Positions 3,710-49,519 of a DNA stretch of 64,000 bases are shown here, piece by piece. The notes under the pieces are model-generated. The model was not told the DNA's origin and ran no database searches. It saw only the letters and a program-made list of their open reading frames with translations. Both the position numbers and the translations under genes were made by a program. Origin of the DNA: Rosistilla oblonga (lineage in GTDB: Bacteria; Planctomycetota; Planctomycetia; Pirellulales; Pirellulaceae); assembly GCF_007751715.1 (NCBI RefSeq), contig NZ_CP036292.1, forward strand, positions 5,835,339 to 5,899,338. Direction: 5' to 3'. Every line of letters starts with the position of its first letter. Within the stretch, counting starts at the first letter, position 1.

Positions 3710-4744
3710 CTAGGGGCCCCAAACATTGGCACTCGCGGCATCAAAAAAATCGACCTTCAGAGTTCTCTTGCCCTGACGGTTATCCCGGAGCAGATTCGCT
3801 CTACGTACGATCTGTTTGTTTGTAGCAGAGTCAGGATCACCGTAGATTCCTACGTAAACTTGCTCAAGTTTACCACGCTCAATCAGCTTGAGGTAATGTT
3901 CATCGTTCGCAGCTAGAGAATGCCCGTATATGAACAAGCATTTTTGAATGGACTGAAAACTACGGTATGCCTTAGCGAGGTAATCACTATGCCTAATCCG
4001 CAGAAGTTTTTCATCAGAAGTACCTTCTGCGACAAAGAGTGGAAAGAAATCGTTGTGGAGTGCCTTGCGAGTTTGCTCGATCAAACGTACGCCTGTACGA
4101 CGCCAAGTGTATTTTTGAATTTCTAATCCAGAATCAAAAACGTGCAATGCACCATGCAGGAACCAGGTGTTCTGGCCATGTGACTGTCCGGGTTCCCAAA
4201 TCACGTAGCCTGATTCCGTGTCAAAGTCGATGTCGTCCTGTGACGTCCGAAATCCGTCGTCAGAATTTACGCTGTCTGGATTTTCATGATGCATTTGCGC
4301 CCAATAAAGCAGCAGGTCGTAGTTGAAAGTGTATATGGTCGTGAAATGGCTTAAGAACTGCTGGCATGCTTGGTATTCTGATGCTGAAAGATCGGATGGC
4401 CGTTCTGGGTGACTCTTCGCAATGGTTTGGACTAGTAGTTCCTTAAGCGCATTCGCATCCTCACGCATTTGAACAGCAGCATCAGGCCCGATCCCGTATA
4501 CATCTGCGACTGCTGCTGTATCGTTGAGTGCACGAATAACTTTTTCGAAGTCAGAAGTTGAAAGCGAGTCAAACGCATCACGTGCCGATTGCGAAACTAG
4601 CGCAAAGTCCGCCTGTGTGAACAGCTTGCCATAGACAAAGATGTCTGGGCGACAGGCAATACTAAAGCCGTTGCCCAGCAAGAGGTGTCGTTTGGAAAAG
4701 TGATCAGTCGCGGCAATAGCTTTAGCGAAGGTGATTGGTTGCAT
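3710..4744 (-). CDS. DUF4917 family protein, SIR2-like
   Basis: This 344-residue soluble protein matches my recollection of the DUF4917 family. LLLGNGFSIACR (residues 21-32) looks like the glycine-rich nucleotide loop of SIR2-like proteins. TTIYTFNYDLLLYW (about 135-148) resembles their 'TxNYD' motif, and TWFLHGALHVF (193-203) carries a His-Gly as in the catalytic HG of sirtuin folds. NAD binding or cleavage is therefore an inference, not an established activity. The ATG at 4744 has GAGG 5 nt upstream; a TTG at 4756 is in frame. Its base composition is visibly lower in GC than its neighbours and it sits between repeat copies, which suggests horizontal transfer. An antiphage role is possible but unproven. 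Confidence 0.72.
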   Translation of the reverse strand: MQPITFAKAIAATDHFSKRHLLLGNGFSIACRPDIFVYGKLFTQADFALVSQSARDAFDSLSTSDFEKVIRALNDTAAVADVYGIGPDAAVQMREDANALKELLVQTIAKSHPERPSDLSASEYQACQQFLSHFTTIYTFNYDLLLYWAQMHHENPDSVNSDDGFRTSQDDIDFDTESGYVIWEPGQSHGQNTWFLHGALHVFDSGLEIQKYTWRRTGVRLIEQTRKALHNDFFPLFVAEGTSDEKLLRIRHSDYLAKAYRSFQSIQKCLFIYGHSLAANDEHYLKLIERGKLEQVYVGIYGDPDSATNKQIVRRANLLRDNRQGKRTLKVDFFDAASANVWGP

Positions 4745-5069
4745 ATTACCTCGCAAAATTATTGAGGAGTGACATGAGCATGTTTCTCAGCAAAACGATC
4801 GTGCGATAACAGGTGGCGTGCTTACAGATCGTTTATACGTCAGCGACTGATCGCCTCACCAGCAGAACACGCTTCACTCGCAACTTGCCGACCACCACCG
4901 TTGTGACCGGGATCGTTTTATCACATCGGGGAGCGGTGTCAACTTTGGTTCCTTCCCGGACAGTGCATGGCTTGAGCTGACGGCAGGGCTTGTTGAGACC
5001 GCCGCCTTGCCGCATCCCAAACCGTTGTGCTGTACTCAAATCGTGTTGCTGAAGAAGGCCCGACGAAAC

Positions 5070-5290
5070 CGTGACTCTGTGAACTCGATGGCTTCAAACG
5101 CCGCCGCGAACCGGGCGGTTGGGTGCGCTCGGTCGGCTGAAGCCTTGACTCCAGCGCGGCCCGTTGGGCACGCGGTTAAACGATGGCGTGATCGTTGGGT
5201 TTCGTTTAACCGCGTGGGCAACGCCCCGCGCGTTGGTATGCAGCGTCGAGAGATGCGCTCGGTCGGCTGAAGCCTTGACTCCAGCGCGGG
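5070..5290. repeat. Composite dispersed repeat, copy C
   Basis: It matches the 3' half of copy A from GTGACTCTGTGAACTCG through GGTCGGCTGAAGCC. Its inner palindrome is perfect: arms of 15 bp, CACGCGGTTAAACGA (5169-5183) and TCGTTTAACCGCGTG (5202-5216), around an 18-nt loop. The GCGCTCGGTCGGCTGAAGCC segment occurs twice, before and after the palindrome. It ends at the 3' end of lutC. The stretch 4745-5070 before it holds no gene I can support. Confidence 0.85.
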
Positions 5291-41631: not shown

Positions 41632-41668
41632 AAAAAACCGCGAGTCGGATTCGACCCGCGGTTTTTTA
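41632..41668. terminator. Bidirectional intrinsic terminator
   Basis: AACCGCG..GTCG pairs with CGAC..CGCGGTT around GATT, flanked by seven A's on one side and six T's on the other. It serves both the secreted-protein gene and the convergent peroxiredoxin gene. Confidence 0.93.
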
Positions 41669-41706
41669 TTGGATTGGCTGAACGAAAGGCTTTCGTTCCG
41701 CTGGCG

Positions 41707-42300
41707 TTACGCCGAGTATTCCGCTCCGAAGAACTCTTTGCTCGCGTCGACATCTGGCTTGATGGTGCGAGCGCCTTCGGTCCAGTTCGCTGGGCAAACT
41801 TCGCCGTTAGCTTCGAAGTATTGCAGTGCTTTGCACATCCGCAACGCTTCGTCGACGCTACGTCCCAGTGGCAGATCGTTGACGACTTGGTGACGGACAA
41901 CGCCGTCCTTGTCGATCAAGAACAGACCACGCAAAGCGATGCCGCCGTCCAACAGGACGTCGTAATCGCGAGCGATCTGCTTGTTCAGGTCGGCAACCAA
42001 TGGGTATTGGATGTCGCCCAAACCGCCTTGAGCGCGGGGGGTGTTACGCCACGCCAAGTGCGAGAAGTGGCTGTCGACCGAAACGCCCAACAGTTGCACG
42101 TTGAGAGCTTCGAACTCTTTGGCCGCTTCGCTCATCGCGATGATTTCAGTCGGGCAGACAAAGGTGAAGTCCAATGGGTAGAAGAAAAGCACGACATATT
42201 TGCCGCGATAATCGGTCAGGCTGATCGATTTGAACGATCCGTCGGCCATCACGGCCTGCGCGGTGAAATTTGGCGCTTCGTGGGTTACGAGCTGTGTCAT
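41707..42300 (-). CDS. 2-Cys peroxiredoxin (AhpC/Prx1 type)
   Basis: This 197-residue protein has the peroxidatic site [15 protein letters not shown] and the resolving cysteine in NGEVCPANW, with [13 protein letters not shown] and a [15 protein letters not shown] loop. It reduces peroxides in the cytosol, recycled by a thioredoxin or AhpF. GGAGA lies about 11 nt before the ATG at 42300, preferred to an in-frame start 150 nt upstream that adds sequence foreign to the family. The C-terminal FFGAEYSA resembles the YF-motif region of hyperoxidation-sensitive Prx, but is not a clear match. Confidence 0.95.
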
Positions 42301-46072: not shown

Positions 46073-46075
46073 AAA

Positions 46076-46153
46076 TCGAGTAGGGTGAGCCAGCGGAGCG
46101 ACCGCTGACTCAGCCCTCTCACAGAACCGTACGTACGGGTCCGTATACGGCTC
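46076..46153 (-). ncRNA. Group II intron domains V and VI
   Basis: Domain V (46153 down to 46124) reads GAGCCGTATACGG then ACCCGTACGTACGGTTC. It has the AGC triad and the GAGCCGT/ACGGTTC lower helix, but only 30 nt where 34 is usual; the distal tip is shortened and no GNRA loop is visible. Domain VI follows with GGGCTGAGTCAGCGG pairing to CCGCTGGCTCACCC. An unpaired A lies in CCCTACTCGA, the expected branch-point position near the 3' splice site. Confidence 0.85.
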
Positions 46154-46177
46154 CTGTTTTATTTGCCTAGTGCTTTG

Positions 46178-46873
46178 TCAGGCTTTGATTTTGGGGTAGA
46201 GGGATTTTAGTTTTGTTCTCGCATCTTTGACTTGGAATTGCCAGTCAACGCCACGCTGTCTTCTGTTTGAGTGTGAGGACCACGCCTGTGTTTCCTTTCT
46301 CAGCGGCGCAATCGTCGCGAATCGACGACCGTTGATACACTGCCGCGTCATTGAACTGAGTTCGTTCTCAGCCGCGTTGAGCCAACTTCCATGCTTGGGT
46401 GTGTAACGGAACTCGATGCGACGAACCAAGGCACGGGCTTTTTCTGGCTTAAAGGCCTCGTAGAAGGCGCCTTTGGTGTGGGTATTGAGATTGTCACATA
46501 CCAGGATGATCTTCTTCGCCTTTTTGTAGCGTGTCGTCAGCAGTGCCTCCATTTCGATGGCCCAATCGACCTTGGTTCGCTTTGGACGCACGGTGACTTC
46601 TCTCCATCCGGCCAGCGGCTCGGTGAACATGAACACGCTGGCGGTTCCGCACCGTTCATACTCGTAATCGACGCGTCGAGCATGATTGCGGGTCGCCGGG
46701 ATCGGCGTTCGCGTCTCTTTGTGAAGCTGGACCGGCTGTTCGTCCATGCACACCACGGGATAGTCCGAATCATACGGTTCTTCGTAGGTGTCTAGGACTT
46801 CTTCCATGCACGCTACAAATTCGGAGTCGGCGTCGGGTGGAATCACCCAATACTGGATCTTGCGATTGGTCAT
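46178..46873 (-). CDS. IS630 transposase, DDE catalytic part
   Basis: This 231-residue protein is a DDE_3 superfamily endonuclease. VVCMDEQPVQLHKE carries the first Asp, IILVCDNLNTHTKGAF the second, and HGSWLNAAENELSSMTRQ the final acidic residue, with the typical DNxNTH motif. It starts at an ATGA overlap with the upstream ORF (4 nt), so coupling or a -1 frameshift could join the two halves. All motifs are intact. Confidence 0.93.
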   Translation of the reverse strand: MTNRKIQYWVIPPDADSEFVACMEEVLDTYEEPYDSDYPVVCMDEQPVQLHKETRTPIPATRNHARRVDYEYERCGTASVFMFTEPLAGWREVTVRPKRTKVDWAIEMEALLTTRYKKAKKIILVCDNLNTHTKGAFYEAFKPEKARALVRRIEFRYTPKHGSWLNAAENELSSMTRQCINGRRFATIAPLRKETQAWSSHSNRRQRGVDWQFQVKDARTKLKSLYPKIKA

Positions 46874-47313
46874 GCCGTTTTTTTAAGCGTTTGGCGAACG
46901 GTTTCGTAGCTGATCGAGTCCACGATCCCCAGTTCTACCACGTGGTCTGCCAACAGACGCAGCGACCAACTCGCGAACCCTTTGGGAGGTTTCCCCAACC
47001 GCAAGGCGATCACTTTCGCTTCTTGCTTTCCGTCAAGCGTCTTCTCTCGCGGGGCGCTCAAACGCGGTTTCCCGTGCAGCGCCGTATCGAACCCTTCGGT
47101 CACCAAACGTTTGCGAAGATTCTCCACGGTCTGAATCCGACACGCCAAAGCTTCCGCGATTTTGGCGTCGGTCCAGCCAGGTCCTTCCGTGTCAGCTTTG
47201 AGAAGGATCAGCGCCCGCCGTACCTTCTGCGAGGAGCCTTTCAGCTTCTTTACAATCGCCTTCAGTTCTTCCCGTTCTGTATCCGAAAGCCGAACGATAT
47301 ACTTCTTAATCAT
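46870..47313 (-). CDS. IS630 transposase, helix-turn-helix part
   Basis: This 147-residue protein is the DNA-binding half: LKGSSQKVRRALILLKADTE, then WTDAKIAEALACRIQTVENL, a homeodomain-like HTH, and FASWSLRLLADHVVELG with ISYETVRQTLKK, a winged-helix region. In many IS630 elements both halves are one protein; here they are two overlapping frames. Confidence 0.92.
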   Translation of the reverse strand: MIKKYIVRLSDTEREELKAIVKKLKGSSQKVRRALILLKADTEGPGWTDAKIAEALACRIQTVENLRKRLVTEGFDTALHGKPRLSAPREKTLDGKQEAKVIALRLGKPPKGFASWSLRLLADHVVELGIVDSISYETVRQTLKKTA

Positions 47314-47403
47314 CGAATCCTCCGTGACTCGTGGGGCAATCGACCTACAAACTCCCGGATTCTTCCGATTCAGGAAACCCCAATTCCTAAGGCTGACAAA
47401 GCA

Positions 47404-48672
47404 CTAGGTTAAGCCAGGAAGGACTCCGGTCTCCAATTCGGTCAAGTCAAACAGGCCAAGTTCCGCCAGGAAGCCATTGCTGATGGCCATGCTGGCGTAA
47501 GAACTACGCGACGTACGCCACGCGGTCATTCGCATCTTCTGGAGGTCACCACGTACGCCGACCTGCCGCAAGCGGCGAATCAGACGCGTCGGTTTCTTCC
47601 ACAACGCGAGTTGCTTGGCCCGTAATCGTCGCCGAATCCATCTAGCCAACTCGCGATACAGACCTTTGCAGTTCGCCATCCGGAAGTAGCTGCCCCAGCC
47701 GCGAAGCACCGGATTCAGGTCAGCAATGACCTTCTCCAAGTTCACCGGGCTGTTCTTGCGAGTGATCACTTTGACCTTCGCCTTGAAGGCCGCGACTTTC
47801 TCGGCAGCAATGCGGGTGTGCATGCTGCCGATCACGACGCCCAAGAACTTCACACCCTCACAGGCTGAAGTCAGGTGCGTCTTATCGCGATTGACGGTCA
47901 ACTTCAAATCACCTTCCAGAATCTCCACTGCAACGCTCATCGCATGAGCCGCCGAGCGCTTGCTCCGACACAGGATCAGAATGTCGTCGGCGTACCGAAC
48001 GATTCGGTAACCACGACGCATCATCTCCTGGTCGAAAGCATCCAGGTAAATATTGGCGATCAGGGGACTGACAACACCGCCTTGCGGGCTGCCAAGCTCC
48101 GTCGCCTCCCAGACACCTTCGTTCATCACTCCGCTGGTCAAAAACATTTTGATCAGATTCAAAATGCTGCCATCGGTCACCCGACGACGGATCGACGAGA
48201 GAATCAAGCCGTGATCCAACCGGTCAAAGCATTTCGAGAGATCCATATCGACGACTTGGTCGAGACCATATCGCCGGATGAACATCGTTGCTTTGGCGAC
48301 TGCCTGTTGGCAACTGCGGCCCGGTCGGTAACCGTAGCTTGATGGATGAAAGTCAGGATCAAAGATCGGCTGCAGGATGTCCAGCAACGCTTGCTGGACG
48401 ACTCGGTCGCGAACTGTTGGGATGCCAAGATGCCGCTGGCCGCCTTCCGGTTTCGGAATCGAAACTCGGCGGACCGCACTGGGCCGGTAAGTCTTGCTCC
48501 GCAGCTCGCTCACCAACCGCGTCAGCTCCCCCAGCAAATCAGCTTCAAACGCATCGATCGCTTGCCCGTCGATGCCAGGTGCACCCTTGGCACGTCGGAC
48601 TTTCTCGAACGCGCGAGCCAAAGCTCGGCGATCAAGCAGTCGGTCGTAGAGGCTGTAGTAGGTTCGCTTCAT
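47404..48672 (-). CDS. ltrA: Group II intron reverse transcriptase/maturase
   Basis: This 422-residue protein has RT0-RT7: AKGAPGIDGQAI, SIPKPEGGQRHLGIPTVRDR, SYGYRPGRS, VVDMDLSKCFD, GSPQGGVVSPLIANIYLD and the catalytic YADD (IVRYADDILIL). The maturase (GIIM) domain has VIADLNPVLRGWGSYFRM and a WIRRRLRAKQLALWKKP helix. There is no C-terminal HNH endonuclease, so mobility would rely on other DNA entry routes. The TAG stop is shared with the target site of the IS630. The ORF is intact. Confidence 0.96.
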   Translation of the reverse strand: MKRTYYSLYDRLLDRRALARAFEKVRRAKGAPGIDGQAIDAFEADLLGELTRLVSELRSKTYRPSAVRRVSIPKPEGGQRHLGIPTVRDRVVQQALLDILQPIFDPDFHPSSYGYRPGRSCQQAVAKATMFIRRYGLDQVVDMDLSKCFDRLDHGLILSSIRRRVTDGSILNLIKMFLTSGVMNEGVWEATELGSPQGGVVSPLIANIYLDAFDQEMMRRGYRIVRYADDILILCRSKRSAAHAMSVAVEILEGDLKLTVNRDKTHLTSACEGVKFLGVVIGSMHTRIAAEKVAAFKAKVKVITRKNSPVNLEKVIADLNPVLRGWGSYFRMANCKGLYRELARWIRRRLRAKQLALWKKPTRLIRRLRQVGVRGDLQKMRMTAWRTSRSSYASMAISNGFLAELGLFDLTELETGVLPGLT

Positions 48673-49462
48673 GACTGTCGGTCGGTGGTCTTTCGTTGGG
48701 TCGATCGCTTTCTGTCGAATCGGTTGGCAGGGTGGCGGTTCACTCAGCGGGCGCCTCGTGTGCTATTCCAGTAGAGGACAATCGCGAGGCGTCGAGTTTG
48801 CTGAGTTACTTCCACGCCGACGGACGAATCGAGCAGCTTAGCAGTTCCCCGCATCGCCACTGTGGACCGGTCCCCGGAGTCTTCGATCTCTCCGGATCGT
48901 GTCGGCTGCCGGTTGTTCGTTTTCGGTGTTCTCTCCAATCACAAGTAAAACTTCACCCCTTCGCATCCAGTGATGACCTTTTGAGTCATCTCTGTCCGGC
49001 GTGACTCGCTTCGGTTACCGCCGATGCTTTGCACGTCGTCGCCACGGTTTTGTCCTCCAGACTGTTACCAGCTTTCACGGGCCGCGACTTATTCACTACT
49101 ACGGGTTCATCTGACTCCTGACACCACATCGATCGCTTCTTGTGTTTCCACTTGAAGCGACCTTACCGGCTTCTCACGCTTCGCCTTTGGGGGAGCTAAC
49201 GCGGCCACGGATAATGTCAGGTCTCCCCAGTTACTGCACTGGCTCCCTGACGATGATGACGTCCCCAAACACTTCCGGCGGCTGTTCATGTATCGGGCAT
49301 CGCGACTTTTTGCACGCTCGCCCCCGCCGGCAGCCGAATCGGGTTCGCTTTCGCTACGTTCCATCGTCCTCCTATCGCTTCCTTCAGACCCGCAGTCACC
49401 GGCGGAACCCTTGCGAATCGGATTCAATTCCCCATGAACAGGGCTTGGTCGGTGACAAGCAC
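48673..49462 (-). ncRNA. Group II intron 5' structured RNA (domains I-III, boundaries approximate)
   Basis: No gene is present in these 790 nt. On the minus strand it runs from the candidate 5' end through GGGGAATTGAATCCGATTCG, CCGGTGACTGCGGGTCTGAA and AAGTCGCGGCCCGTGAAAGC to GGAGGACAAAACCGTGGCGA. I recall segments like these from other group II introns of this type. Domain limits and exon-binding sites need folding to settle. Confidence 0.6.
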
Positions 49463-49493
49463 CGACTGGGTTTGCCAGCTTCGCTGGGCAAAC

Positions 49494-49519
49494 AAAAAAG
49501 CGGCCCGTTTTGGGACCGC
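49494..49519 (-). terminator. Intrinsic terminator of the YHS-like gene
   Basis: On the minus strand GCGGTCCC pairs with GGGCCGC (one bulge) around AAAAC, followed by TTTTTT. A second imperfect hairpin (GTTTGCCAGC and its complement, 49470-49493) lies between it and the intron. Confidence 0.85.

Follow-up and report, generated by a model that had tools for sequence, protein, structure and literature searches.

A group IIC intron of Rosistilla oblonga interrupted in domain IV by an IS630-family element at the stop codon of its reverse transcriptase

The Rosistilla oblonga genome is a single 7.25-Mb contig, and the window analysed here is a 64,000-nucleotide stretch of it (bases 5835339-5899338). 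On the minus strand, behind a gene for a YHS-domain protein, the window contains an intron that we assign to group IIC and that is interrupted by an IS630-family insertion sequence. The features of the locus, in window coordinates and in the order in which the intron strand is read, are the following.

49494..49519, minus strand: intrinsic terminator of the upstream YHS-domain gene, target of the intron (stem 49500-49519, T-tract 49494-49499); intron-free counterparts in G006 and G072
46075..49493, minus strand: group IIC intron, IS630-interrupted copy (eight aligned copies, GTTTGCCC to CTACTCGAT, flanks unrelated)
49242..49405, minus strand: part of ribozyme domains I-IV (RF02001, group-II-D1D4-3; 78.1 bits, E 3.7e-14)
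48942..48951, minus strand: 5' strand of the domain IV basal helix, GUUUUACUUG (intron positions 543-552; from covariation)
47404..48672, minus strand: intron-encoded reverse transcriptase (RT)/maturase, 422 aa (TIGR04416, 400.8 bits; TAG stop at 47406-47404)
47405..47406, no strand: TA target copy on the RT side, within the RT stop codon
46170..47404, minus strand: IS630-family insertion sequence, 1235 bp, transposase on the RT strand (NF033545, 143 bits; DDE_3)
47377..47404, no strand: IS terminal inverted repeat, transposase-upstream end
46870..47313, minus strand: transposase N-terminal ORF, 147 aa, HTH domains
46178..46873, minus strand: transposase C-terminal DDE ORF, 231 aa, -1 frame
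46170..46197, no strand: IS terminal inverted repeat, other end
46168..46169, no strand: TA target copy on the domain V side
46156..46165, minus strand: 3' strand of the domain IV basal helix, CAAAUAAAAC (A at 46162 private to the window copy)
46121..46155, minus strand: domain V (RF00029)
46075..46120, minus strand: domain VI and 3' end CUACUCGAU (RF00029; 3' end common to the eight copies and relatives)

The limits of the intron were determined from eight copies in the genome with diverging flanks. An earlier sequence-only reading of this stretch had placed the intron at 46076-49462; the copies move these limits to 46075 and 49493. All eight begin with GTTTGCCC, end with CTACTCGAT and lie in unrelated surroundings. 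Six are uninterrupted and two, the window copy and one at 1.917 Mb, carry an IS. With the IS left out the copies measure 2182-2186 nt, and the window copy, without the IS and one TA, measures 2182 nt. Joined across the IS, it aligns over these 2182 nt to the six uninterrupted copies with agreement throughout. In the uninterrupted copies the RT, CTAG, CAAGTAAAAC and domain V follow one another contiguously, and joining the flanks of the window IS again produces a TAG stop followed by GCAAATAAAACAGGAGCC and the start of domain V. Because the uninterrupted copies carry the whole stretch from RT to domain V, this comparison, which the sequence-only reading had proposed, assigns domain V to the interrupted intron. 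The host locus is empty in both same-genus genomes examined (G006 and G072), where the intron is missing and the 3' flank follows the terminator directly.

Each of the eight copies lies immediately 3' of a hairpin and T-tract, with a different hairpin each time. Bacterial class C introns are known to insert at intrinsic terminators (Robart 2007, as cited in PMC3898094 and PMC8919778). Among solved structures the RT matches GsI-IIC RT best (299 bits), ahead of 7uim, a group II RT/maturase (269 bits), and LtrA (127 bits), and the only domains found in it are RVT_1 and GIIM, with no endonuclease domain. A search with Rfam covariance models, also proposed earlier, placed RF02001 at 49242-49405 and RF00029, the domain V/VI model, at 46075-46155 on the minus strand (48.8 bits, E 8e-7), and both models scored above gathering in the window copy and in other copies. 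Since every copy lies behind a terminator hairpin and T-tract and the nearest RT is that of GsI-IIC, the intron, judged by its terminator sites, RT bit scores and ribozyme matches, is a member of group IIC. Within the domain I match, AAAAA at 49307-49311 could plausibly act as an EBS1 that pairs with the U-tract. A sub-threshold Rfam match to the Atu_C9 sRNA elsewhere in the window (41635-41733, minus strand; 27.3 bits, gathering 40) overlaps the 3' end of a peroxiredoxin-like gene and probably arose by chance.

The usual 5' consensus of group II introns is GUGYG. All eight copies start with GUUUG, which deviates from this consensus and is not a known exclusion from group II introns. The first 24 nt of the intron (49470-49493), with this shared start, form a near-perfect hairpin, GUUUGCCCAGCGAAGCUGGCAAAC. 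The same genome also encodes a different group II-type RT (L035, G000:C1:5717000-5724000), with 45% identity over 277 residues.

Translation across the IS junction yields the full 422 residues of the RT. Its TAG stop is composite, in that the TA is one copy of the target duplication, while the G, at 47404, already belongs to the IS as its first base. The resulting protein is identical to the RTs of two uninterrupted copies, and also to that of the 1.917-Mb copy when its IS is left out. Among the eight copies, 19 of the 20 variable sites in the RT fall at third codon positions (p 1e-8). Variable columns number 3 in the first 480 nt of the intron and 1 in the last 92, against 36 in 341 nt of 5' domain IV. 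Third-position bias in the RT and little variation at the ribozyme ends thus indicate that the intron family was under selection until recently.

The inserted element has the organization of an IS630-family member. Its DDE part scores 143 bits with NF033545, above the cutoff of 100, whereas the N-terminal part scores 62 bits and alone falls below it; DDE_3 matches at 88 bits. Including flank, the inverted repeats of the window copy form 32-nt arms that are 84% complementary. The transposase is split into two ORFs with a -1 shift at CTTAAAAAAACGG (46870-46873, minus strand), and an A7 run lies just upstream, before the stop of the first ORF. Given this run, the transposase is likely made via frameshifting or transcriptional slippage. 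Four copies of the IS, 99.4-100% identical, are present in R. oblonga. The same IS occurs in G006 in six copies (L072, L092, L100-L103; 99.6-99.8% identical), all in CTAG, and G006 is without this intron family. This near-identity between species suggests recent transfer of the IS.

The target of the element accounts for its position. Tenzen and Ohtsubo 1991, a paper cited in PMC2170065, state in their title that IS630 prefers the TA in 5'-CTAG-3'. In all ten copies examined here (four in R. oblonga, six in G006) TA stands on both sides of the IS, and the sites read C-TA-[IS]-TA-G. CTAG occurs just twice in the intron, at positions 1849 and 2087; one intron copy has the IS at the first site and another has it at the second. 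Position 2087, occupied in the window copy, is the C-TAG of the RT stop (ACC TAG G), so the insertion falls exactly on the stop codon because the target spans it. Since element and target both supply G after TA, any insertion into a C-TAG stop restores TAG. Position 1849 is occupied in the 1.917-Mb copy, where it lies inside the RT gene and the RT is truncated to 356 residues, the last few IS-encoded. In that copy (L032, G000:C1:1914000-1922000, IS at 3965-5199) the same IS has the opposite orientation. A CTAG-type RT stop was not seen among the relatives listed, whose readable stops are TGA or TAA; from this the CTAG target at the RT stop seems particular to the present lineage.

In the RNA, the insertion site can be placed relative to a helix that encloses domain IV. 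Directly 5' of domain V, CAAGUAAAAC forms a helix with intron positions 543-552, GUUUUACUUG, and relatives whose sequences differ greatly keep the pairing. In a set of 10 distinct sequences 97.5% of cells are paired, 7 of 8 pairs show double changes, and the covariation score is 0.883 against 0.233 in shuffles, with 23 double-change cells against 6.7 when shuffled; because the strands were selected as able to pair and an artificial loop connects them, the alignment favours the helix somewhat. The position of the strands, one after GAAG and the other directly before domain V, is independent of that choice, and slid controls are 40-48% paired. On this comparative evidence the paired strands are the base of domain IV. 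CTAG (2087-2090) lies one nucleotide inside this helix, which places the IS in the ORF-bearing domain IV and outside the catalytic core. Of the private changes that the window copy carries near the IS, one falls in this helix, at 46162, which is A here and G in the other seven copies. Where those copies have a C-G or U-G pair, the window copy has C.A, and the helix taken alone is less stable, at -3.2 kcal/mol against -9.4 or -7.1.

The sequence-only reading had described the TA at 46168-46169 and 47405-47406 as that of the RT's TAG stop, and had the RT full length, domains V and VI surviving and the insertion in domain IV. The TA duplication and inverted repeats are present, the RT runs for 422 aa across the junction to TAG at 47406-47404, RF00029 covers 46075-46155 at 48.8 bits, and the site is one nucleotide inside a covarying basal helix. 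What that reading missed was the reason for the stop-codon position, the CTAG target. Its view of a nested silent insertion stands as regards structure and the unchanged RT, but the description as a clean case of insertion tolerance goes further than the evidence, given that no daughter copy was found and that a private change breaks a domain IV pair.

In our account, a terminator-targeting group IIC intron spread to eight sites in the genome, and an IS630-family element, inserting at the TA of CTAG, later hit the CTAG over the RT stop of this copy. With the G after TA coming from IS and target alike, the stop was restored and the RT keeps its 422 residues. The insertion lies in the domain IV loop, one nucleotide inside the basal helix, and leaves domains I-III, V and VI physically intact. 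It may have survived since domain IV is not catalytic core and since an intron that follows a terminator is nearly neutral for the host. We have high confidence in the structural and historical part of this account, namely intron first and IS second, the CTAG rule and an intact RT sequence. The chances of residual splicing by the IS-carrying copy appear roughly even, and its retromobility is probably much reduced.

Repeats are a known cause of misassembly, and an assembly artefact could in principle have joined an IS630 copy to the intron. This is extremely improbable, as the genome is a single contig, the TA duplication is precise, the remainder of the intron is continuous on both sides of the IS with private substitutions on both sides, and the interrupted copy at 1.917 Mb follows the same target rule. 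A different question is whether this IS favours group II introns as targets, since two of its four genome copies lie in these introns. Measured against all CTAG sites the corresponding P is about 3e-5, and it is 3e-4 if the non-coding ones alone are counted, as estimated from window density; these values are post hoc, concern four events and depend on rough gene calls and extrapolation from the window. Survival bias can explain two of four, as it works in favour of neutral DNA, for instance an intron that follows a terminator. Furthermore, Rfam detected no group II intron close to the six G006 copies or to the remaining two in R. oblonga, and beyond the two interrupted introns no IS630 copy was found in or beside a group II intron. 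We consider a landing preference unlikely, and the CTAG rule remains our explanation for the site.

Whether the interrupted copy is active divides the remaining readings. It may be fully dead and trapped, with the extra 1.2 kb, or a strong terminal-repeat hairpin near the base of domain IV, blocking splicing. Targetron mobility falls drastically with inserts of more than 1,000 nt (PMC3898094), and 600 bp was the practical insert limit in one host (PMC8524655); however, these limits concern the retromobility of engineered introns (for 600 bp, the group IIA intron Ll.LtrB) and not IIC splicing. The terminal repeats of the IS are predicted to pair, with probability ~1, beside the domain IV helix, and the private mismatch in that helix favours the same reading, whereas the pairing of domains V and VI is predicted to be the same with and without the IS. 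No amplified copy of the intron with an IS at site 2087 was found elsewhere in the genome, but with IS copies 99.4-100% identical the insertion appears to be of recent date, which makes missing daughters weak evidence. Taking both sides together, a dead copy has slightly less than an even chance. Between the intron start and domain V, no terminator-like site was found on the intron strand. Folding of the whole RNA, once with the IS and once without it, was rejected as a splicing test since it could not tell working copies from dead ones; among uninterrupted copies the base helix was predicted at ~0.95 in c748 and ~0.75 in c258 and was absent in c2900. At the other extreme, the intron could still work and move as a composite retroelement with the IS as cargo. 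The RT and ribozyme domains are intact and the insertion lies in the ORF-bearing domain, yet the arrangement occurs in one copy only. The four IS copies lie at unrelated CTAG sites, which argues that the IS spreads on its own, and such a composite is very unlikely. The related proposal, that a group IIC intron withstands a whole 1.2-kb DNA transposon in its domain IV and goes on splicing and retrotransposing, is also quite unlikely; if true, a natural intron would have another mobile element as its cargo.

Nested mobile elements are common, and the locus amounts to two known target rules, one atop the other. Both rules, CTAG for IS630 and terminators for group IIC, were already known, and this is an ordinary nested insertion in which each part is typical of its family. 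Its value lies not in a new kind of element but in a natural experiment: a single genome holds eight near-identical introns, of which six are uninterrupted, one has an IS in domain IV with an intact RT and one has an IS in the RT. These matched controls make it possible to measure how the size of domain IV affects splicing.

The literature searched, with partial coverage, yielded no direct precedent for an IS630 element in a group II intron and no account of one within the domain IV of a IIC member; related systems are available for each part. Like class C introns of the GsI-IIC RT type, which have the closest RT, the window intron inserts right after intrinsic terminators and has a short RT without an endonuclease domain; it differs in its GUUUG 5' end, its planctomycete-like host and the IS in domain IV. 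The IS resembles IS630 of Shigella sonnei and the IS630/Tc1/mariner family (ISY100) in its DDE transposase, TA duplication and use of the TA of CTAG as target, but has a different sequence and a transposase in two overlapping frames. A passage in PMC8919778 describes a group II intron of Methanosarcina mazei S-6 divided by a transposase gene, which is likewise a natural intron interrupted by another mobile element, although of CL1A type. Similarly, targetron cargo (PMC3898094) is foreign sequence placed in domain IV; targetrons are engineered IIA or IIB introns with the ORF removed, whereas the window intron is natural and retains its ORF.
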